Below, one piece after another: positions 264 through 35,734 of a DNA stretch of 63,850 nucleotides. The notes beneath the pieces were generated by a model. That model saw only the letters and a list, made by a program, of their open reading frames with translations. It was not told the origin of the DNA and did not search any database. The position numbers and the translations under genes were made by a program. This DNA is from a virus: positions 1 through 63,850 of the IMG/VR virus record IMGVR_UViG_3300046809_000440; one strand, 5' to 3'. Within the stretch, counting starts at the first letter, position 1. Each line of letters opens with the position of its first letter.

Positions 264-340
264 TGGTACGCCCAGCAGGACTCGAACCTGCGACCCTCGG
301 CTTAGAAGGCCGACGCTCTATCCGACTGAGCTATGGGCGC
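264..340 (-). tRNA. tRNA-Arg (anticodon UCU)
   Basis: Read on the minus strand from 340, the sequence folds as a standard 77-nt tRNA with encoded CCA. The 7-bp acceptor stem is GCGCCCA/TGGGCGT, the anticodon loop is CTTCTAA and the T arm contains GGTTCGAGTCC. The anticodon UCU reads AGA, which is rare in GC-rich genomes. It lies six bases from tRNA-Leu within the leftward operon. Confidence 0.95.
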
Positions 341-736
341 GCTGTTGGTGCGAGGGGCCGGACTTGAACCGGCAAGCGGCGCACCCGCGGCGAGGTTTAA
401 GCTCGCTGTGTCTACCGTTCCACCACCCTCGCTAAATCTGCTCATTGCGACCCGATTGCCGGCCTCCGCCATTGCCTTCCAGCGCCGTCGCGCCTTGCCG
501 ATAGCATTAAGGATGCTGAGCGTCCGTTTTGGGGCAGGTTTCATGGCGCTGAGATAGGCCTCCAGCATTGAATTGGTTGGTTCGATTGGACCGATATAGA
601 AGCCTGCCCGTAGTAGCGCGATCAATCCATCGGTCGCCTGAGCCGCCGTGATGTTAAGTGCCTCCGCAAGAACATCGCGAGCGGAGCGTGCTGGACGTTC
701 GTATATTTGCACCCGCTCGCGAGGCTCAGTAGTCAC
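302..736 (-). CDS. Hypothetical protein whose frame runs through two tRNA genes
   Basis: GTG at 736 overlaps the stop of a tiny upstream frame (GTGA). The first 100 or so residues look like a real helical, basic protein (MTTEPRERVQIYERP...). The frame then continues through the whole same-strand tRNA-Leu gene and stops inside tRNA-Arg. The last 40 residues are therefore translated tRNA sequence. The natural product may be cut short by tRNA processing of the transcript. No family recognised. Confidence 0.5.
   Translation of the reverse strand: MTTEPRERVQIYERPARSARDVLAEALNITAAQATDGLIALLRAGFYIGPIEPTNSMLEAYLSAMKPAPKRTLSILNAIGKARRRWKAMAEAGNRVAMSRFSEGGGTVDTASLNLAAGAPLAGSSPAPRTNSAPIAQSDRASAF
346..432 (-). 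tRNA. tRNA-Leu (anticodon UAA)
   Basis: On the minus strand from 432, an 87-nt class II tRNA with CCA: acceptor GCGAGGG/CCCTCGC, anticodon loop CTTAAAC flanked by GCGAG/CTCGC, a long variable arm typical of leucine tRNAs, and T arm GGTTCAAGTCC. It decodes UUA. A second, different tRNA-Leu(UAA) is at 3927-4010. Confidence 0.95.
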
Positions 737-3042: not shown

Positions 3043-3344
3043 GCGGCGGTCCTGCAATCGGTCAGGATTTGGTTATCCAAGAATGGAGCAAGGAGCTAGT
3101 AAAGCAAATTGCAATGGACATCGGAAAAGAGACAGTAGCCTACGTTGAGGTGATGTACCCCGAGGCTATCACGGCTACCTCATCGACATTCCGACTATCT
3201 CTACGCAACCACATCCATAACGAAATTATGGCAGCTATAGAAGTCACTGACGAAGGAACAATTGTGGCTAGATTGAAGGATCGAAAGGCATTCCGCCGTC
3301 GGTGGGTTGGTGTATATCGAAAAATGCGAAAGGCTGCCCAATGA
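3039..3344 (+). CDS. Hypothetical protein, 101 aa
   Basis: ATG overlaps the stop of the XRE gene (ATGA). The product is helical and mixed in charge, with a basic end (RKAFRRRWVGVYRKMRKAAQ). Base composition is lower in GC than its neighbours. Function unknown; operon position suggests an early role. Confidence 0.7.
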   Translation: MSGGPAIGQDLVIQEWSKELVKQIAMDIGKETVAYVEVMYPEAITATSSTFRLSLRNHIHNEIMAAIEVTDEGTIVARLKDRKAFRRRWVGVYRKMRKAAQ

Positions 3345-3529
3345 CCGGCCGCACCCTGATCGTCTACCAGTGCGACTCGGTCGTCGTGATCGAGGATTGC
3401 GATGAGGCGCATCTGCCATTCACCCGGTCGTTGCTGACGCCGGAAAGCGCGGTGCGGATCGGTGAGCAAATGGCGGCGCTGGGGATGCGGATGCTGGCGC
3501 GTCGGAGGCGGGAGGCGGCTGATGCCTGA
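3341..3529 (+). CDS. Hypothetical protein, 62 aa
   Basis: ATGA overlap with the upstream gene sets the start. The product MTGRTLIVYQCDSVVVIEDC... begins with a beta strand pair, followed by an acidic turn and a basic helix (MLARRRREAADA). No family recognised. Confidence 0.65.
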   Translation: MTGRTLIVYQCDSVVVIEDCDEAHLPFTRSLLTPESAVRIGEQMAALGMRMLARRRREAADA

Positions 3530-3833
3530 GATGGTCCACCGGGTGACGCAGGCGATCGTGGACGAGATGATTCGTCAGTCTGGAAGACAGCCGATCCGCA
3601 ATGCCGCTTTTTTGGATATGAGCCAACGGGTCGCCCGCGCCGCTATCGAGGCCATGCGGACGCCGACCGAGGCAATGGATGTTGCGGGGCGACATTGGTG
3701 CCACGGCGTCGATGTGGGCGATGGTTCGATGCGAATGGCATGCGGCGCGTTTCTGGGCGAGACAGCATCAGAGCAATGGCGGCGCATGATCGACGCGGCG
3801 CTCGCGGAGGAGACGGCTGGGGAAGACCAATGA
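3522..3833 (+). CDS. Hypothetical protein, 103 aa
   Basis: ATG at 3522 lies a few codons before the upstream stop and follows GGAGGCGG. The product (MPEMVHRVTQAIVDEMIRQS...) is largely helical and ends in an acidic tail. No domain recognised. It is coupled to both neighbours. Confidence 0.65.
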   Translation: MPEMVHRVTQAIVDEMIRQSGRQPIRNAAFLDMSQRVARAAIEAMRTPTEAMDVAGRHWCHGVDVGDGSMRMACGAFLGETASEQWRRMIDAALAEETAGEDQ

Positions 3834-4027
3834 TACCAACAGATCGCCTATGTCAGATCGTCGACGTGCAAAACCCACAAGTGGCAAAGCTACTTGCTGA
3901 AATACGGTCTCGTGATGCTCTAATTCGCCGCCTTGGTGGAACGGTAGACACGTTGGACTTAAAATCCGATGCCTCAGTGCGTGAGAGTTCGACTCTCTCA
4001 GGCGGCACCATCATTCCGTTCCGTTAA
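3830..4027 (+). CDS. Hypothetical frame containing tRNA-Leu
   Basis: ATGA overlap with the upstream gene and a helical first half (MIPTDRLCQIVDVQNPQVAK...) support a real gene, but the frame passes straight through the same-strand tRNA-Leu at 3927-4010 and ends 17 bases later. The first 32 codons precede the tRNA. Either the gene is short and its 3' end was replaced by the tRNA, or translation and tRNA maturation compete on one transcript. Confidence 0.4.
   Translation: MIPTDRLCQIVDVQNPQVAKLLAEIRSRDALIRRLGGTVDTLDLKSDASVRESSTLSGGTIIPFR
3927..4010 (+). tRNA. tRNA-Leu (anticodon UAA), second copy
   Basis: 84-nt class II tRNA with encoded CCA: acceptor GCCGCCT/AGGCGGC, anticodon arm TTGGA-CTTAAAA-TCCGA, a variable arm and T arm GAGTTCGACTC. 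It is not a copy of the tRNA at 346-432 although the anticodon is the same. It is embedded in the rightward operon. Confidence 0.93.
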
Positions 4028-4050
4028 AAGCCAAAGGGAAAGTTGTTCAG

Positions 4051-4380
4051 GTGAGCGAAGCTGCATCGGGCATTTCGGCGCGGTTGCTCTCCGCTTGTCA
4101 AACGCAAGGTAACGCCTGCCATTGGTGCGGCCATCAGTTTCGGTTTGACCAAGGGCCTGGGCATGAAATGGCACCGAGTCGCGAGCACGCTACGCCGCGC
4201 AGTCTGGGCGGCACTAAAATCCTCGGGATCGTCCACCGACGATGCAACGCCATTCGTGGCATCATCGATCAAGAAGCGTTCCGGCGGATAATGGACGGGG
4301 AAGCGGTCACGCGCGAGGACTGCTGGCCGCACCTGTTCCCGCGCAACGCTGCCGGCGATGCAAATGTCTCAAATGGTTAG
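4051..4380 (+). CDS. Small HNH nuclease-like protein, 109 aa
   Basis: GTG at 4051 is needed to include the first zinc pair. The product has CHWCGHQF (residues about 23-30), the HNH core SREHATPRSLGG, and VHRRCNAIRG, i.e. a Cys-His-His-Asn order typical of small HNH proteins. It could be a homing-type nuclease or a packaging-related HNH protein; the position, far from terminase and beside a methyltransferase, favours the former. Its stop overlaps the methyltransferase start. Confidence 0.7.
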   Translation: MSEAASGISARLLSACQTQGNACHWCGHQFRFDQGPGHEMAPSREHATPRSLGGTKILGIVHRRCNAIRGIIDQEAFRRIMDGEAVTREDCWPHLFPRNAAGDANVSNG

Positions 4381-6601
4381 TGTCCGCCTCGAACACGACG
4401 ACATGCTGCAGGCGATCCCGCGCCTCGTTGCGGAGGGGGTCGTTGTTGATGCGGTCGTGACCGATCCGCCCTACCATCTGACGGCTACCGTTAAACGCTT
4501 TGGGGCCGCTAATGCTGCGCCAGCGCAAGAGGGGCGCGACGGTGCTATGAAGCGCTTGTCGGGTGGATTCATGAATCAGCAGTGGGACGGAGGCGACATT
4601 GCTTTTCGCCCCGAGACGTGGGCGACAATAGGTTCCATTATGCGGCCTGGCGCGTTCCTCGTGGCGTTCGGCGGGTCCCGCACGCATCACCGCGTCTGGT
4701 GCGCGATCGAGGACGCCGGCTTTGTCATCCAGGACACGATCATGTGGCTGTTCGGGTGTCTCGACGAGGCCACCGAGGCAGTGACGGCAGAAGGCATAAA
4801 GCCATACCATAAAATCAAGGTAGACGATCCGGTATTGTGCTATGATCCGACGATTGGCGAGTACAGCTATCAGCCTGTCCTAGAGGTCGTGGAATATGCC
4901 TACGATGATACCGCCTACCGTCTTATCGGAGATTTTGGCGAGCAAGTTGTCTCCCGAAACCATCGCTGCATTGTTGAACGAGGCGGAAACGAAACATTCC
5001 AGTTCGCCGAGACACTGGAATGCGAGTCGCGTGTACCCGTTCTGGAAAGTTTGCCAGAACTGCAAGAAGCCCTTTCCGACCAATACAATCGAGCAGGCCA
5101 ATCGAAACAAGACCTGCGGGCCAAACTGCGCCGCTGCTTTAATAGCGGTATCGAGAACAGGCGAGATACGGAAGCCGCGTATTCGATGCGCGCATTGCGG
5201 CAAACTGGTGAAAGACCCGCCGCCGTCTCGGCGTGTTCGCCAAGCGAAGGTCTATTGCAGCCGATCATGTCGCGCGAAAGCGAACGTGGTTCATCTGCTG
5301 CCCTTCTCGGGGAATGGCAAGGGCAAGCTGCGCCCAGATATGCCGTGGATGATTGGCGAGCGAAATCCCGCGTGGAAAGGCGGTCTGACTTATCGGAACC
5401 GGAAAGGAGCCTACGTCAATCAGCCGATCCGGTATGTGCGCTGTCCGGCGTTGTTCCTGAGTATGGCGAGGCGCGATGGCTACGTGATGGAGCATCGTCT
5501 GATCGTCGCGATGGCGATTGGGCGGCCCTTAACAAGAGTCGAGACTGTTCACCATCGAAACCATCAAGCCTCAGAGAATGCACAAACGAACCTGATGCTG
5601 TTCGCGACGAACGCGGAACACAAGGCGTTCGAGCATGGCGCGGCCATCGTTCCGCTATGGTGCGGGTGGTGCCATTCCGATACGTCGGCAAGGTCTGGTG
5701 TTTGCGCGTGCCCACCGGGGCCTTTGTTGCTGTCCGCAACGGGGTAGCCTTCCCAACGGGCAACAGCGGCTTCCCGAAGCGCCGCGACATGCTAAAGCCC
5801 GCATTCGAGCCGCTCTGCCTCGCCTACAAGCCGGGCGGCAAGCGGACGATGCAGGTGGATGAGTGTCGGATTGGGACAACTGTTGAGACATGGCCTTCGT
5901 CGCGCGCGCGTCCAATATCCAACGCTTTCTACACGCATAAACTAGCGGGCGATGACCGTACCAAAACTGTGGCGACCGGCGCCGTGCCGCCGGGCCGCTG
6001 GCCCGCCAACATCTGCCACTCGGGAGAGGACGAGGTGCTGGCGGCGTTCCCGCAGAGCGCCGGTAGTGTTGGCGAGTTTCGCCGCGTTGCCTCGAAGAAC
6101 TACGAAAGCACGGTTCAGATTGCTGGGCGGAATCAAGATATAGCAGGAGTCGGGTTTGGCGATAGCGGATCAGCGGCGCGTTTCTTCTGGTCGCCCAAAG
6201 CCGGCGCGGAGGATCGCTGGGGCAGTCGTCATCCGACCGTCAAACCCGTCGAACTAATGAAGTGGCTCGTGGCGCTTGTTTGCCCGCCCGCCGGCCTCGT
6301 GCTCGACCCATTCGCCGGCAGCGGCACGACCGGGGCAGCGGCACTCGCCACTGGCCGGAACGCCATCCTGATTGAGCGGGAATTGGCATATTACGAGGAC
6401 ATCAAGGCGCGGATCGCCCACTACGAGGGCGCGGGGCAACATTCCCGCGTGGCGAAAGGCCGGAGGGCAGCGCCAGAGAGATCAGGGGCAGATGGAACCC
6501 CGCTTTTTGCTTATGCCGCATCGCCCGCAACACAGTCGGAGATGGCTCAACAGCTATGTGACACCGCCGGCATAGAGTCACGAGATTGCTCAGATGATTA
6601 G
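4358..6601 (+). CDS. Beta-class DNA methyltransferase interrupted by an intein
   Basis: The 747-residue frame has a methyltransferase N-part with DPPY (residues 36-39), an intein (134-469), then the C-part with PTVKPVELMKWL and the AdoMet motif DPFAGSGTT near residue 650. This order (catalytic motif before AdoMet motif) fits N6-adenine or N4-cytosine enzymes. Removing the intein restores WLFG-SGFPK, a usual junction in these enzymes, and leaves 411 residues. An internal ATG at 4373 may be the real start; no ribosome site is clear. The last 66 codons overlap an antisense HNH gene, and a diverged second copy of the C-terminus lies at 7162-7332. Confidence 0.85.
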   Translation: MQMSQMVSVRLEHDDMLQAIPRLVAEGVVVDAVVTDPPYHLTATVKRFGAANAAPAQEGRDGAMKRLSGGFMNQQWDGGDIAFRPETWATIGSIMRPGAFLVAFGGSRTHHRVWCAIEDAGFVIQDTIMWLFGCLDEATEAVTAEGIKPYHKIKVDDPVLCYDPTIGEYSYQPVLEVVEYAYDDTAYRLIGDFGEQVVSRNHRCIVERGGNETFQFAETLECESRVPVLESLPELQEALSDQYNRAGQSKQDLRAKLRRCFNSGIENRRDTEAAYSMRALRQTGERPAAVSACSPSEGLLQPIMSRESERGSSAALLGEWQGQAAPRYAVDDWRAKSRVERRSDLSEPERSLRQSADPVCALSGVVPEYGEARWLRDGASSDRRDGDWAALNKSRDCSPSKPSSLRECTNEPDAVRDERGTQGVRAWRGHRSAMVRVVPFRYVGKVWCLRVPTGAFVAVRNGVAFPTGNSGFPKRRDMLKPAFEPLCLAYKPGGKRTMQVDECRIGTTVETWPSSRARPISNAFYTHKLAGDDRTKTVATGAVPPGRWPANICHSGEDEVLAAFPQSAGSVGEFRRVASKNYESTVQIAGRNQDIAGVGFGDSGSAARFFWSPKAGAEDRWGSRHPTVKPVELMKWLVALVCPPAGLVLDPFAGSGTTGAAALATGRNAILIERELAYYEDIKARIAHYEGAGQHSRVAKGRRAAPERSGADGTPLFAYAASPATQSEMAQQLCDTAGIESRDCSDD
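4757..5764 (+). other. Intein in the methyltransferase (336 codons)
   Basis: Starts at Cys134 (CLDEATEAVTAEG, block A-like) and continues with a SRNHRC block B motif. It ends in VPTGAFVAVRNGVAFPTGN before Ser470, the +1 nucleophile. The terminal pair is Gly-Asn rather than the usual His-Asn. The splicing motifs occupy about the first 110 and last 35 codons. The middle shows no LAGLIDADG or HNH motif in this frame; instead it contains a nuclease gene in the +1 frame. Confidence 0.85.
4896..5747 (+). CDS. HNH homing endonuclease nested in the intein in the +1 frame
   Basis: A 283-codon frame, offset +1 from the methyltransferase frame. It has zinc pairs CQNC (53-56), CGPNC (74-78), CAHC (98-101) and CSRSC (121-125), a NPAWKGG motif (158-164) and an HNH core from MEHRL (199) through ETVHHRNH (216-223) to TNLML and NAEHKAFEH. 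The same architecture is seen in the antisense HNH genes at 6402 and 34068. ATG at 4896 has AGAGG 12 bases upstream. The final 35 codons overlap the C-terminal splicing region and look non-functional. Confidence 0.85.
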   Translation: MPTMIPPTVLSEILASKLSPETIAALLNEAETKHSSSPRHWNASRVYPFWKVCQNCKKPFPTNTIEQANRNKTCGPNCAAALIAVSRTGEIRKPRIRCAHCGKLVKDPPPSRRVRQAKVYCSRSCRAKANVVHLLPFSGNGKGKLRPDMPWMIGERNPAWKGGLTYRNRKGAYVNQPIRYVRCPALFLSMARRDGYVMEHRLIVAMAIGRPLTRVETVHHRNHQASENAQTNLMLFATNAEHKAFEHGAAIVPLWCGWCHSDTSARSGVCACPPGPLLLSATG

Positions 6602-7130
6602 AGCGACTGAGGCTCCACGGGACAACGTGATGCACGTCGAGCCGCTTGCGTTTGTCGCCCAAGGCGGTCTGCAAAAGCCCGCATCGTTGGCAGGTATAGC
6701 AATCGCGCTTTCGCGCAGCCTCAGCCTGATCTTTCCAGTCCTGACCTCGCCGATAGTGTTGCGACGACCCGCCCTTCCACGACGGATGCCGTGCTCCTCT
6801 GATGTTTGCTGCTTGCCACGCCGAATAGCATCCCTTCGAGCAGAATTTAGCTCCCGTAGACCGATACGACACAAACGGTCCTCGACAAAATCGGCACACA
6901 GCATCAACCTGGCCACGCCGATTCCAGCATTGCCTAGAGCAATATTTCGCGCTGAGCCGATGGGCGGATACTTCAAAGTAGGTATCGCAACGGACACAGG
7001 ATTTCGTGATTCTGTTTCGTGGTGGACCGACCCTGCCTCTTCCGGCTATCCCGCAGGCATACGAACAAAATCTCCGTTGCGTTCCCTTGATGTTGGCGAG
7101 GTTACCGCAGTGGGCGCAGGTAATCTTCAT
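6402..7130 (-). CDS. Free-standing HNH endonuclease, antisense to the methyltransferase 3' end
   Basis: Read from ATG 7130 the product starts MKITCAHCGN and has three CxxC/CxxxC zinc modules, then HPSWKGG and a canonical HNH core (VHHVVPWSLSRSNHLSNLVT followed by LCRRCH). A longer start at 7184 is possible. Its 3' end overlaps the last codons of the methyltransferase on the other strand. It sits between two diverged versions of the methyltransferase C-terminus, so it is an insertion at the gene's 3' end. Lower GC than the surroundings. Confidence 0.85.
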   Translation of the reverse strand: MKITCAHCGNLANIKGTQRRFCSYACGIAGRGRVGPPRNRITKSCVRCDTYFEVSAHRLSAKYCSRQCWNRRGQVDAVCRFCRGPFVSYRSTGAKFCSKGCYSAWQAANIRGARHPSWKGGSSQHYRRGQDWKDQAEAARKRDCYTCQRCGLLQTALGDKRKRLDVHHVVPWSLSRSNHLSNLVTLCRRCHIAVEPSPTVLRAMRHKQKAGFHLPLISLALPSGLSPRGNVAPRPRSGRSAP

Positions 7131-7161
7131 GTCTGAAATTATAGCAAAAATATCGGGGAGA

Positions 7162-7332
7162 GCCAGAGGATATGTCGCAGACATCCGGGAACGGATCGCC
7201 TTCTATGAAGGAAATGGGTTGCACTCAGCACACGCAAAAAACAGAAACAGAGGAAACGGTGTCAGAGCGCTGCGAGATGGGGGAAGGGGACGACCACTCA
7301 CCGGCTATGGGCCGCTTTTCGATGCTGACTGA
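7162..7332 (+). pseudogene. Displaced second C-terminus of the methyltransferase
   Basis: The plus-strand frame encodes ARGYVADIRERIAFYEGNGL and onward to GPLFDAD. It aligns with the methyltransferase tail AYYEDIKARIAHYEGAGQHS and GTPLF. At DNA level the copies are clearly diverged, so this is not a recent local duplication. There is no methyltransferase start. It appears to be the original or donor 3' end separated by the HNH gene. Confidence 0.75.
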
Positions 7333-24808: not shown

Positions 24809-27439
24809 ATGCCTGACGGCGCCGACATTCGCCCCGTTCTGCTCAAGCCCAGCCCGGCTTTGCGCCCCCTGCTGTTCGAGTTTGCGCGGCGGCGGGAACG
24901 GCGGGAATGCGAGGGGTCGTTGCTTGCCTTCCTGGCTCGGGCGTGGCGCGAATTCGACCCGTCGCCGTTCATCTTCAACTGGCATCACAAGGTACTTTGC
25001 GAGGAACTGGAGGCGCTCGCGCGGGGCGAGATCAGGGATTCGGTGATCAACATCCCGCCGCGGACGGGGAAGACGAACATCATCTCGGTGGCGTTCCCGG
25101 CCTGGCTATGGGTGCAGCCGGAGGAGCGACAGGCGCCGCTGATGGGGCCGCACGTCCGGTTCCTCTGCGTTTCCTACGGCTCGACGCTGGCGGAGGTGGC
25201 CGCGGTCAAGATGCGCCGGCTGGTTATGGGGCCGTGGTATCAGGCTCACTGGGGCAAGCGGGTGCAGATCAGGGCCGATCAGGCTGGGCGCAGCGATTTC
25301 GGCAACACGGCCGGCGGTGAACGCATCTCGAATTCGATCGAAGGAGGCATCCTCGGGCGAGGCGGCGACATTCAGATCATCGACGATCCGCACAAGGTTG
25401 ACGGGGCGGAGTCCGATGTCGAGCGGGATCGCACGCTGCGGGCGCTGGCGGAAGGTCTGACGACTCGTATCACCGACCCGAGGATCGCTGCGCGCGTGCT
25501 GGTGATGCAGCGGCTGCACTCGGACGACGCGACGAACCATGCGCTGGAGCGCTGGCCCGACCCGTCGCATGTCATGTTGCCGATGCGGTTCGATCCAGAG
25601 CGGGCGACGGAGGCTGATCCGCGGAACGAGCCGGGGGAGCTGCTGTGGCCCGAGGTATGGGACGAGGAGTCGGTGCTGCGAGAGGAGCGCGAGCTAGGGA
25701 GTTATGGCGCAGCGGGGCAGCTGCAGCAGATGCCGGTGCCGCGGGGCGGTGGGATCATCCTGGAGGAGTGGTGGCAGTTCTGGCCGGATGGTGATTTCCC
25801 GCCATTTGGCACTTGTGTTGCGGCGCTGGATACGGCGTACAAGTTGAAAGAGGAGTCGGATTATAACGCGTTGACGGTGTGGTCTGCGTTTGCGCATCCA
25901 GAAACGGACAAGCCGAAGGTGATGTTGCGGGACGCATGGCAGGTACGGGCGACGCTTGCTGATCTGGTGGCGAAGGTAATAAAGACATGCCTGCTCCACA
26001 AGGTTGATACGTTGTTGATCGAGGACTCGGCGCGCGGGTCCGATGTCGCGGACGAGATACACCGCTTAGTAAGCAAGCGGGAGATACACATCGAGCTTGT
26101 ACCTCCGGCGGGCGATAAGGCATCTCGGCTTAGTGCGGTTTCGCCGTTGTTCGAGAACGAGATCATCTACGCGCCGGATCGGGAATGGTCGCAGATGGTG
26201 ATTGATCAGGTGGCGAAGTTTCCTCGTGTGCGCCACGACGATTTGTGCTTCGTGGCAGGGACGGCTATAGCGACGAGGCGGGGCGCGGTTCCGATAGAGG
26301 AAGTCGTCGCGGGGGATTTTGTCGTCACGCCGCTAGGATGGCGGCGGGTAACGGCGCAGTCGGCGACAGGGGTTAAAGCGGTGGTCAGCCGCGGTGCGCT
26401 CTGCGGGACGGCTGGGCACCCTGTCTATACGTTTGATGCAGGATACCGCCACCTATATAGTATCAACTCAGTATCATTATTGAGCGAGTTGACGCTATGC
26501 GGCTTGATGCGGCAAATCCTCCCGAGACGGTGGAATTCATGGGTGTTGTCTACCGCCGCATGGGAGGGAAGCGGCGGTATTATCTCTCGCAATCCACGTC
26601 TAATGCGGGGCGTAGGGAAGCCAAAGGTTTGCACGTTGCCATCTGGGAGCACAAAGAGCGGCGCCCGGCCCCTCCTGGTCATGAGGTGCATCACAGGGAC
26701 CACGATACGTTTAATTGTGATCCTGACAACTTGGAGTGTTTACCGAAAGGCGTGCATCGCCGCCAATCTAAGAACGTGGACGAGGTTGCGCAGCGAACGC
26801 ATCTGGAGCGTATTCGGCCGCTGGCTGCTGTGTGGCACCGCTCTAACGAAGGGCGCGAGTGGCATCGAGGGCATGCAAAAAATAGTTTCCGGCAAGAAGG
26901 GGCGGCCAAGCCTTATTCGTTGGTTGTGCCAACTAAGCTGCTGTGCGATTGGTGCGGAAACGAATACAGCACAGTACAGCCGGGGGTATCAAGGTTTTGT
27001 GGTCAGCGATGCGCTTCGGCATGTTTGGCTTTTGAGCGTGGAAAGAATAAGAAAGTTAGTAGGTATTACGCTTCCGCTAGAGGAATTCGCTTTGACTGCA
27101 CCTGCGAATGGTGCGGCACTATTTTCACTCCCGCCGATCAGCCAAAATCACGGACGCGAAGGTTTTGCGAGCAGCCATGCTCGTCTGCATTCTTCAGGTA
27201 CAAATACGGCCTTACAAAAACCATCCACCCTCACTATGCAGCCGGTTTACAACCTGAAGGTTGAGGATGCGGGTTGCTACTACGCGAATGGCGTACTGGT
27301 GCATAACTGTGACACTGTGGCGCTGGCCCTGTCGTATCTCCGCAAGACGGGTGTAGTGGTGCGGCGCGAGGAGCATGATGATGAGGTTACGGAGCGGCTG
27401 CGGTATCGGAAACAGCCTACGGCGGTTTACGATGTCTAG
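24809..27439 (+). CDS. Terminase large subunit interrupted by an intein, 876 codons
   Basis: The ATPase part has Walker A NIPPRTGKTN (81-90) and Walker B IQIIDDPHK (about 190). The RNase-H-like nuclease part has AALDTAYK (about 339), LLIEDSARGSD (about 402) and the final HDDL-CDTVALAL. The intein (residues 480-833) splits this last motif immediately before its catalytic-region Asp. Removing it leaves 522 residues, a normal TerL length. ATG at 24809 has only AGGCG upstream. Packaging therefore depends on splicing if the frame is read as shown. Confidence 0.9.
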   Translation: MPDGADIRPVLLKPSPALRPLLFEFARRRERRECEGSLLAFLARAWREFDPSPFIFNWHHKVLCEELEALARGEIRDSVINIPPRTGKTNIISVAFPAWLWVQPEERQAPLMGPHVRFLCVSYGSTLAEVAAVKMRRLVMGPWYQAHWGKRVQIRADQAGRSDFGNTAGGERISNSIEGGILGRGGDIQIIDDPHKVDGAESDVERDRTLRALAEGLTTRITDPRIAARVLVMQRLHSDDATNHALERWPDPSHVMLPMRFDPERATEADPRNEPGELLWPEVWDEESVLREERELGSYGAAGQLQQMPVPRGGGIILEEWWQFWPDGDFPPFGTCVAALDTAYKLKEESDYNALTVWSAFAHPETDKPKVMLRDAWQVRATLADLVAKVIKTCLLHKVDTLLIEDSARGSDVADEIHRLVSKREIHIELVPPAGDKASRLSAVSPLFENEIIYAPDREWSQMVIDQVAKFPRVRHDDLCFVAGTAIATRRGAVPIEEVVAGDFVVTPLGWRRVTAQSATGVKAVVSRGALCGTAGHPVYTFDAGYRHLYSINSVSLLSELTLCGLMRQILPRRWNSWVLSTAAWEGSGGIISRNPRLMRGVGKPKVCTLPSGSTKSGARPLLVMRCITGTTIRLIVILTTWSVYRKACIAANLRTWTRLRSERIWSVFGRWLLCGTALTKGASGIEGMQKIVSGKKGRPSLIRWLCQLSCCAIGAETNTAQYSRGYQGFVVSDALRHVWLLSVERIRKLVGITLPLEEFALTAPANGAALFSLPPISQNHGREGFASSHARLHSSGTNTALQKPSTLTMQPVYNLKVEDAGCYYANGVLVHNCDTVALALSYLRKTGVVVRREEHDDEVTERLRYRKQPTAVYDV
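26246..27307 (+). other. Intein in TerL (354 codons)
   Basis: Begins CFVAGTAIATRRGAVPIEEV (block A) with a block B TAGHPVYT; ends with QPVYNLKVEDAGCYYANGVL and VHN, followed by Cys as +1 residue. These are complete class 1 splicing motifs. Between them about 250 codons show no recognisable endonuclease in the intein frame, but hold an HNH gene in another frame. Confidence 0.92.
26497..27264 (+). CDS. HNH homing endonuclease nested in the TerL intein in the +2 frame
   Basis: A 255-codon frame, offset +2 (-1) from TerL. The HNH core is GHEVHHRDHDTFNCDPDNLE (61-80) followed by CLPKGVHRRQS. Two zinc modules follow: CDWC...FCGQRC (150-172) and CEWC...FCEQPC (203-228). ATG at 26497 has GAGCGAG upstream. 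The nuclease would be made independently of TerL and not fused to the intein. The last few codons overlap the C-terminal splicing region. Confidence 0.9.
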   Translation: MRLDAANPPETVEFMGVVYRRMGGKRRYYLSQSTSNAGRREAKGLHVAIWEHKERRPAPPGHEVHHRDHDTFNCDPDNLECLPKGVHRRQSKNVDEVAQRTHLERIRPLAAVWHRSNEGREWHRGHAKNSFRQEGAAKPYSLVVPTKLLCDWCGNEYSTVQPGVSRFCGQRCASACLAFERGKNKKVSRYYASARGIRFDCTCEWCGTIFTPADQPKSRTRRFCEQPCSSAFFRYKYGLTKTIHPHYAAGLQPEG

Positions 27440-34050: not shown

Positions 34051-34071
34051 TGCCGCTGCAAGCCGGTTTAT
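34051..34071 (+). pseudogene. Orphan start of the gene at 34787
   Basis: GAGGATCGGCTG is followed by ATGCCGCTGCAAGCCGGT, encoding MPLQAG, the same residues that begin the gene at 34787 (GTGCCACTACAAGCGGGA). The differences are silent except for the start codon. The frame then runs into the antisense HNH gene. Confidence 0.7.
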
Positions 34072-34763
34072 GCATCGAATGCCAGTTGTTCTCGTCGCGC
34101 GCGAACCGTCGCGGCTCGACCCTTAAAATTATGAGGCATAGGAAGAAGAAGCGAGGGTTGCGCTACTTTGTTATTTTCGTCGGCGGCTAACATGGTTGCT
34201 AATAACGGTGCCAGTGTTCTCGCTCGTTCAAAATCTCGTTTTCTAGTGGGGGAATCTTGCCTGTGTTCTCGCTCATGGCAATTGGCGCATAACGTAATAA
34301 GATTACTTGCCCCGTCACCTGCATTTCGTCCATTTATGTGGTGAGCATGGAGAGTCCAGATGTCGTCTATCCCGCATCGTTCGCAAGCGAGTGTCCCTAA
34401 TTTTATAATAGTGTAAGCAAAACATCTCAATCGATACGTTTTGGAACCAACTTTTAGGAGACTATTAAAAATGGATGCACATCGGCGCGAGCAAAAACGT
34501 CGCGGGCGCCCATTCATATTCTCTCGTCCTAGAATTATGTTGCCACAAACAACGCATGGAGAGCGTTCTATACATTCTCTGGAACAATATTCTCTGTTTT
34601 TTTTCAAATGGTAAACTTCAAAAGATTTTCCACAGGCTTTGCACGAAAGGACAACTCTGTGTTTTGCTGCCCACACACATTTGCGACAGCAAAAAATCTG
34701 GCGCTTGCCTTTCTTGCTATAATGACGGACGAATGGTGTGTCGCAGTTGGCGCATATATCCAT
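34068..34763 (-). CDS. Free-standing HNH endonuclease, antisense
   Basis: ATG at 34763 gives MDICANCDTPFVRHYSKKGK with zinc modules CANC...CCRKC, CKAC...CSREC and CVVC...CSRRC. The HNH core is LHAHHINGRNAGDGASNLIT followed by LCANCHEREH. The same architecture is found at 6402-7130. AT-rich. It lies between two copies of the start of the gene at 34787. A GTG start at 34793 is possible. Confidence 0.88.
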   Translation of the reverse strand: MDICANCDTPFVRHYSKKGKRQIFCCRKCVWAAKHRVVLSCKACGKSFEVYHLKKNREYCSRECIERSPCVVCGNIILGRENMNGRPRRFCSRRCASIFNSLLKVGSKTYRLRCFAYTIIKLGTLACERCGIDDIWTLHAHHINGRNAGDGASNLITLCANCHEREHRQDSPTRKRDFERARTLAPLLATMLAADENNKVAQPSLLLPMPHNFKGRAATVRARREQLAFDA

Positions 34764-34786
34764 GCCGCTACAGTAGGGAGTAATTA

Positions 34787-35734
34787 GTGCCACTACAAGC
34801 GGGAATTGCGCCCTCCGTAATAGGCAATAACATTCGCGAGATGATCGCCAGCGGACACCCTCGCGCCCAGGCTATTGCGGCGTCGCTGTCGAATGCCGAT
34901 CGGCACCCGAGGATGGCATTCGGGGGGATCGCGCCGTGGCAGGCGCCGATGCCGCAACAAGGCATGCCGTCCGGTGCCCCTACGGGCGGTGTTGCGCCGG
35001 GGGGCGGGGCGATGCTGGGAAGGATCGTACCACCGCCGCCTGTGCAGCCGGGGATGATGCCGATGCAGACGCCTGTAGCGCCGCCTCCGGCACTCGGTCC
35101 CCCGCAGATGGCGCCGGGGATTGCGCCGTTGCCGCGCCCGATGGGCGAGCAGATGGGGCAGCCTACGATGGCGCAGCGCGGTCCGGCGATGGCTGAGGGT
35201 GGCGAGTTGTCGTGGGAGCAGGGCGCGAAGCTGGCGGCGCATATCGGCAACGAGCACGGGACGATCGGGTTTCTACATTCGGCGGTGCCGGGTCGAACCG
35301 ATCTGATCCACGCGCAACCGCCGGTTGGCAGCTTTGTCGTGCCGGCTGATGTGGTGTCGGGCGTTGGCGCTGGAAATTCGCTGGCTGGCGCGGCGATTTT
35401 GCAAAAGGCGTTCACGGTCGGGCCGTATGGAACGACGCTCCCGAAGGCGGGGTCTGGCGGGGTCGGTATCCCGAAGCCGCCGCCGCGGTTTACCGGCTCG
35501 TTTCTGGCACCGGCGGCGAAGCGCGGCGGCCGGCAACGGAAGAATGAGGAGCATGTCGGCGAGCCGACACCGATCTTGGCGGCGGGGGGAGAGTTTATCA
35601 TTCATCCGCAGGCGGTGCGGGAGGTCGGCGGCGGCGACCTGACCCGTGGGCACACGGCCCTTGATCATTGGGTTGTGACCAAGCGCAAGGAGATCGCGGG
35701 GACGATGATGCGGTTGCCGGGGCCGAAGAAATGA
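34787..35734 (+). CDS. Putative virion protein, 315 aa
   Basis: GTG at 34787 after AGGGAG. Starts MPLQAGIAPSVIGNNIREMI and ASGHPRAQAIAASL, a motif found at the start of many phage tail or internal proteins, then a Pro/Gly/Met-rich linker. The folded C-terminal half includes GRTDLIHAQPPVGSFVVPAD and GGEFIIHPQAVREVGGGDLT. Probably structural; its start was rebuilt by the HNH insertion. Confidence 0.65.
   Translation: MPLQAGIAPSVIGNNIREMIASGHPRAQAIAASLSNADRHPRMAFGGIAPWQAPMPQQGMPSGAPTGGVAPGGGAMLGRIVPPPPVQPGMMPMQTPVAPPPALGPPQMAPGIAPLPRPMGEQMGQPTMAQRGPAMAEGGELSWEQGAKLAAHIGNEHGTIGFLHSAVPGRTDLIHAQPPVGSFVVPADVVSGVGAGNSLAGAAILQKAFTVGPYGTTLPKAGSGGVGIPKPPPRFTGSFLAPAAKRGGRQRKNEEHVGEPTPILAAGGEFIIHPQAVREVGGGDLTRGHTALDHWVVTKRKEIAGTMMRLPGPKK

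Follow-up and report, generated by a model that had tools for sequence, protein, structure and literature searches.

How can a gene keep the frame of an intein open while the same DNA, read in another frame, appears to encode a homing nuclease? Inteins are usually described as a splicing domain with an endonuclease fused in frame, and how the endonuclease is acquired is an old question. We pursued it in the terminase large subunit (TerL) gene of a viral sequence, the 63,850-nucleotide IMG/VR record IMGVR_UViG_3300046809_000440, analyzed over its whole length (hereafter, the window).

The TerL open reading frame (ORF; 24809–27439, +) encodes 876 aa and matched the PHROG terminase large subunit family (E=3e-74). 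It is stop-free through an insert of 354 aa (26246–27307, +) that was assigned as an intein from its splice blocks, predicted Hint fold and fold matches in the PDB. Upstream, the N-extein (24809–26245, +; PHROG terminase large subunit) comprises the ATPase together with the bulk of the nuclease domain, with a Terminase_6C match directly before the intein, while the C-extein (27308–27439, +) begins at Cys+1 (CDTVALALSYL). The N-terminal splicing half (26246–26494, +), which is conserved in the splice frame, opens with CFVAGT, supplying Cys1, and has TAGHP at the block-B position; the C-terminal splicing block PVYNLKVEDAGCYYANGVLVHN, ending in ANGVLVHN and followed by Cys+1 (27241–27310, +), overlaps the last HNH codons by ~24 nt. 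The splicing residues of a class 1 intein (Cys/Ser1, block-B TxxH, penultimate His, terminal Asn and Cys/Ser/Thr at +1) were present in the window (C1, TAGH, VHN and C+1), and the conserved columns across 59 aligned inteins were C1, T55, H58 and N354. A Pfam match to Hint_2 (E=6.7e-6) covered intein residues 1–29, the splice-block Pfam scores of the window's TerL intein being under the gathering cut-offs. The insertion point falls in the last nuclease motif (HDD|..), at which a TerL 73% identical to that of the window (locus L095) carries uninterrupted HDDYVDSTSQAL; the joined HDDL-CDTVALALSYL has the same length as the intact HDDYVDSTSQALNYL of that relative, and excision of the 354 aa in silico left a TerL of 522 aa. 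An open splice frame with good terminal blocks, a split last nuclease motif and a length of 522 residues for TerL minus the insert had all been proposed in the first-pass annotation of this DNA, and each was borne out, as were its coordinates and frames. The two halves of the intein lie on a single continuous ORF in the window, rather than on separate ORFs as in a split intein.

In the +2 frame relative to TerL, the insert encodes a protein of 255 aa (26497–27264, +) with matches to Pfam HNH_3 (E=1.9e-9) and the PHROG HNH family (1.2e-26). The protein contains the HNH motif (26689–26757, +; HH at residues 65/66, D68, N73, N78 and H87, in columns that are invariant or nearly so) and eight zinc-ligand cysteines in two modules, the first at 26944–27012 (+; C150, C153, C168 and C172, invariant columns) and the second at 27103–27180 (+; C203, C206, C224 and C228, nearly invariant or invariant columns). 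Motif and ligands alike are those of HNH_3 homing endonucleases, in agreement with the earlier description of a complete HNH protein with two zinc modules at this position, and the second module is missing in the closest relative (L013/L144). The same-frame endonuclease domain of canonical large inteins was not encountered in the window's TerL intein, where the HNH is in +2.

When the intein or the HNH protein of the window was searched against IMG/VR at the protein level alone, no matches were returned, and an HNH profile built from distant phage matches was needed to find relatives there; loci were gathered by HNH sequence alone, not by intein or TerL. Using tblastn of the HNH protein against phages, we recovered three annotated terL genes (from Tetrasphaera phage TJE1, Acinetobacter phage Highwayman and Rhodobacteraceae phage LS06-2018-MD07) and one unannotated contig, and in all four a continuous TerL-intein ORF held the HNH in its +2 frame, with no HNH annotated in TJE1, Highwayman or LS06. 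In Microbacterium and Klebsiella phages, the longer tblastn matches to TerL proved to be C-exteins only and not inteins, and were set aside. Taking the best 80 of 502 relatives from the IMG/VR profile search together with the phages, 78 loci including the window (a few being near-duplicates or cut by a contig end) had the HNH inside one ORF bearing both intein blocks. The register was that of the window in 77 of these and opposite in one (L086; 3245–4090), the insertion was in all cases at TerL nuclease motif III or a few codons from it, and the arrangement spanned very divergent TerLs. GTDB genomes contributed 51 loci, among which 18 further ones were nested. The latter bear names such as Rhizobium, Prevotella, Glycomyces, Bacteroides, Acidobacteria and Omnitrophota, and two of them are from archaeal metagenome-assembled genomes that are possibly mis-binned. 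Homologues with the nuclease in frame with the intein, which the first-pass annotation had named as evidence against its reading, did not occur among the loci that the HNH profile retrieved (the best 80 of 502 IMG/VR relatives and 51 from GTDB).

The HNH was seen in three arrangements: nested in another reading frame, free-standing (frequently adjacent to terL) and between apparent split-intein halves. At the split-looking loci (L074, L081, L093, L094, L152, L154, L166, L170 and L171) the intein N-half ends in a stop, the HNH forms its own ORF and the C-half follows in another frame; at L094 the C-terminal zinc part is all that remains of the HNH. Free-standing relatives adjoin terL in several phages, one of them lying beside terS-terL. 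In the HNH tree, nested loci clustered strongly and supported branches forced at least four changes; the L086 sequence grouped with the free-standing genes, which suggests a separate entry of its nested HNH, probably of independent origin. Two other configurations were noted. At L172 (~3209–4191) the HNH is present with an open overlap while the N and C intein blocks are in different frames, which may reflect an assembly error, decay or a frameshift; and L075, L077 and L080 each have a second intein-like N/C block pair ~2 kb (1.7–2 kb) upstream of the nested one.

Presence of the element was sporadic. The nested intein locus L097 and loci L098–L104 have identical or near-identical DNA flanking the site, which is empty in the latter (CAC|GGA) and occupied in the former (CAC|intein|TGT). 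Phages whose TerL is 99–100% identical to that of a carrier had neither intein nor HNH at the site, and the intein was absent from most of the 47 relatives fetched. A different nested intein occupied the L097 site in L109, L110 and L113, and in some pairs the element was more alike than the TerL that hosts it (between L066 and L090 the HNH proteins were 70% identical against 50% for TerL). Clean empty alleles were available for L097 against L098 and others, the window's comparator being the 73% relative L095. It is this distribution that suggests homing of the TerL element.

To estimate the stops expected by chance, the HNH protein and its codon usage were held fixed and synonymous codons shuffled, with terL codon usage as the alternative. 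Nested loci, a class that presupposes an open ORF even though its members were collected by HNH similarity, had 0 splice-frame stops, whereas the shuffle predicted 2.1 per locus on average and terL codon usage 4.0; free-standing relatives, a set that includes kin of three split-type loci, had 5.15 in the same frame against 5.23 expected. The third frame was as expected in the nested and free-standing sets (17.3 stops versus 18.3), L086 had 0 stops in its own splice frame against 10–15 expected, and loci with both intein blocks but a broken frame were nearly all of the split type. The window's TerL element alone would be expected to hold ~1.8–2.2 stops, and the probability of finding none was 0.08–0.09. 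The initial claim that the splice frame is open beyond chance therefore stands across the TerL-intein family, and chance openness was also rejected for the methylase element described below on its own, but it could not be rejected for the window's TerL element taken singly.

Classical dN/dS is invalid where genes overlap, and codon-position differences were used instead, alongside the synonymous shuffles. For 14 pairs, differences at positions 1/2/3 were.28/.21/.52 in the extein,.27/.22/.49 in the intein N-part and.14/.05/.41 in the C-block, all in the splice frame, while the overlap gave.26/.21/.44 when read as HNH codons, so that along the element constraint passes from the splice frame to the HNH frame and back, switching at the HNH boundaries. 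Between the window and L013, the overlap gave.39/.37/.69 when read as HNH codons and.33/.62/.45 when read as those of the intein. The HNH protein is accordingly constrained, as are the splice blocks in their own frame. The overlapped splice frame is held mainly to openness; its amino acids are not conserved, and the stretch may thus be a mere tolerated linker. Purifying selection on both frames, as first envisaged, is hence indicated for the HNH frame and the splice blocks, while in the overlap it would extend to the openness of the splice frame and not to its residues.

A strong Shine-Dalgarno sequence preceded the first HNH start in 48% of 67 distinct loci, as compared to 11% of out-of-frame control starts, and the maximum of 2000 random draws was 25%, an enrichment that favours internal initiation. 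In the window itself, the match at the 26497 start is moderate (-5.0), and the HNH frame is closed 12 codons upstream.

An AlphaFold model of the splice frame, built with the 59 aligned inteins, had pLDDT 89–98 for approximately residues 1–90 and 94–98 for the last 24, and was mostly poor across the HNH overlap. Its PDB fold matches, among the matches listed, were inteins or intein-like domains, and a Hint fold is predicted for the TerL splice frame. A long helix modelled at intein residues 141–194, in the overlap, probably just mirrors the conserved HNH coding and was given no weight. The HNH model was confident (pLDDT 85), and its best match to solved structures was a weak one to I-HmuI (probability 0.57).

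From the computed dual coding, an arrangement kept throughout the family, the avoidance of stops, constraint on the HNH frame, ribosome-binding site enrichment, predicted folds and empty alleles, we infer that this is very probably a composite mobile element: a class-1-like TerL intein whose homing endonuclease is a separate, complete gene overprinted on its middle and not an in-frame domain. Ribosomes starting at terL would translate the splice frame, from which the Hint domain would excise itself, joining HDDL to CDTV in a 522-aa TerL. Other ribosomes would start at the ATG at 26497 in the +2 frame and produce a free zinc/HNH nuclease, which would cut or nick intein-free terL specifically at nuclease motif III, whereupon repair would copy the whole element into the cut gene. 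Any stop arising in the splice frame would inactivate terL, which is essential, and selection would for that reason keep both readings open.

Other explanations were weighed against the same evidence. HNH proteins of the HK97 gp74 type lie next to terL and are packaging co-factors, and the overlap might likewise serve to co-express TerL with a co-factor in place of a homing enzyme. The free-standing HNH relatives that directly adjoin terL in several phages fit such a role, which has been suggested for brucellaphages (PMC4422536), but we consider it unlikely given that TerLs nearly or fully identical to a carrier's lack both intein and HNH at the site, that the protein belongs to HNH_3, widespread in phage homing enzymes, and that an unrelated nested HNH resides in methylases, which are not packaging genes. 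A decayed or chance overlap, with one frame non-functional in the window, would agree with the P of ~0.08 for an open frame in the window's TerL element alone and with the relative L172, in which both halves are in different frames; it is nevertheless quite improbable, since all HNH, zinc and splice residues are intact in the window, change in the HNH frame relative to L013 is wobble-biased and the record is clean across the family.

Programmed ribosomal frameshifting from terL, yielding a TerL-HNH fusion and no free protein, would account for overlapping frames in a register that is constant in the TerL-intein HNH family. However, the HNH ORFs have their own starts, enriched in Shine-Dalgarno sequences, the HNH frame is shut shortly upstream in the window, and the same HNH also occurs as free-standing genes, making frameshifting a highly improbable source of the arrangement. 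Phage group I introns often carry HNH_3 enzymes, and an RNA intron with an HNH ORF was therefore considered in place of an intein. Against it, an Rfam scan of the window at the gathering threshold reported no intron family and only three tRNAs, the ends of the insert are conserved as protein across divergent loci and are predicted to fold as Hint, and an open splice frame would serve no purpose in an intron, leaving this a negligible chance. The composite intein with an overprinted nuclease gene remains our preferred reading.

The first-pass annotation understated the extent of this architecture, which is widespread and has a second, unrelated example in the phage of the window. A DNA methylase ORF of 747 aa (4358–6601, +; N6_N4_Mtase, 4e-24) contains an intein of 336 aa (4757–5764, +; MWLFG / CLDE...FPTGN / SGFPK). 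Nested within this intein is an HNH gene of 283 aa (4896–5747, +), which lies in +1 relative to the methylase. The register is opposite to that of the TerL element and the HNH type unrelated. The methylase splice frame had 0 stops against 10.3 or 8.4 expected, a result matched in 0/2000 shuffles, and the element taken singly is statistically decisive. The HNH it carries is homologous to that of the ShiLan domain of mycobacteriophages, and a profile search gave 80 loci, of which 73 were non-redundant. In 71 of the 73, nearly all clearly in methylases, the HNH was nested in one register, with 0 splice-frame stops against 724 expected. A simple pattern recognized an intein C-block in ~39 of the nested loci, and the others included true ShiLan-like insertions (such as L205–L207) and some that the pattern missed (such as L214). 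At L205 (3438–4052), L206 (3396–4019) and L207 (3444–4025), no intein blocks accompany the HNH, which is inserted straight into the methylase in another frame, the host frame still being open.

Several known systems resemble these elements in part. The ShiLan domain of mycobacteriophage methylases, in which its authors found no splicing element (PMC11855218; 2025), likewise conceals a zinc-module HNH in another frame of an insert through which the host frame stays open, whereas both window elements carry intein blocks and are not of that splicing-free type. Phage ShiLan also has a separate methylase intein, at the same G|C...TGN|S site and with a C-block similar to that of the window's methylase intein; unlike the latter, with its out-of-frame HNH, it has an in-frame LAGLIDADG-like domain (weak Pfam match). 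Mycobacteriophage TerL inteins, some of which splice and cleave intein-free alleles (PMC5050341), lie in the ATPase domain with the endonuclease, where identified, as part of the intein, while those described here are in the nuclease motif with the HNH out of frame. Fractured genes, as presented where PMC10448857 cites Dassa et al. 2009, are split inteins whose halves are separated by a homing-endonuclease gene; they share with our loci a separate endonuclease gene embedded in an intein, and L074, L081, L093, L094 and others match them, but the nested loci differ in having the intein as one continuous polypeptide and the genes overlapping.

Priority is not clean. A putatively intein-encoded HNH, out of frame in the TerL of a brucellaphage and alike by description, was the subject of a passing remark in 2015 (PMC4422536), which concerned one phage group and offered neither an analysis of splice blocks nor a family, a test of selection, empty alleles or a mechanism; our HNH similarity search returned no brucellaphage record. 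The ShiLan domain is a close analogue, and a 2025 preprint (Gosselin) on non-canonical actinobacteriophage inteins, cited in PMC11855218, may overlap with the finding of inteins with nested HNH genes. Apart from the brucellaphage remark and ShiLan as precedents, our literature search met no description of overprinted-HNH inteins as a class, their extent, the selection on them or their two independent lineages.

We think it somewhat probable that overprinted homing genes represent a general second intein design, with at least two unrelated HNH lineages (in TerL and in DNA methylase) in opposite registers, one of them also found intein-free in its host gene, and with the nested, split and free-standing forms as live intermediates of endonuclease gain, swap and loss. 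That the relatives display nested, split, free-standing and intein-less states makes the steps of endonuclease acquisition directly comparable, and the loci provide a clear set of long overlapping genes held open by selection. They also explain hidden ORFs that annotation pipelines overlooked, as in TJE1, Highwayman and LS06, and tie the puzzling ShiLan domain to inteins.

Finally, the window encodes a free-standing HNH protein of other families (34068–34793, -; PF01844, 6e-7) and, overlapping the 3′ end of the methylase, a zinc-finger/HNH-like protein (6402–7184, -) judged by eye only. Its tRNA genes are at 267–340 (-), 349–432 (-) and 3927–4007 (+).
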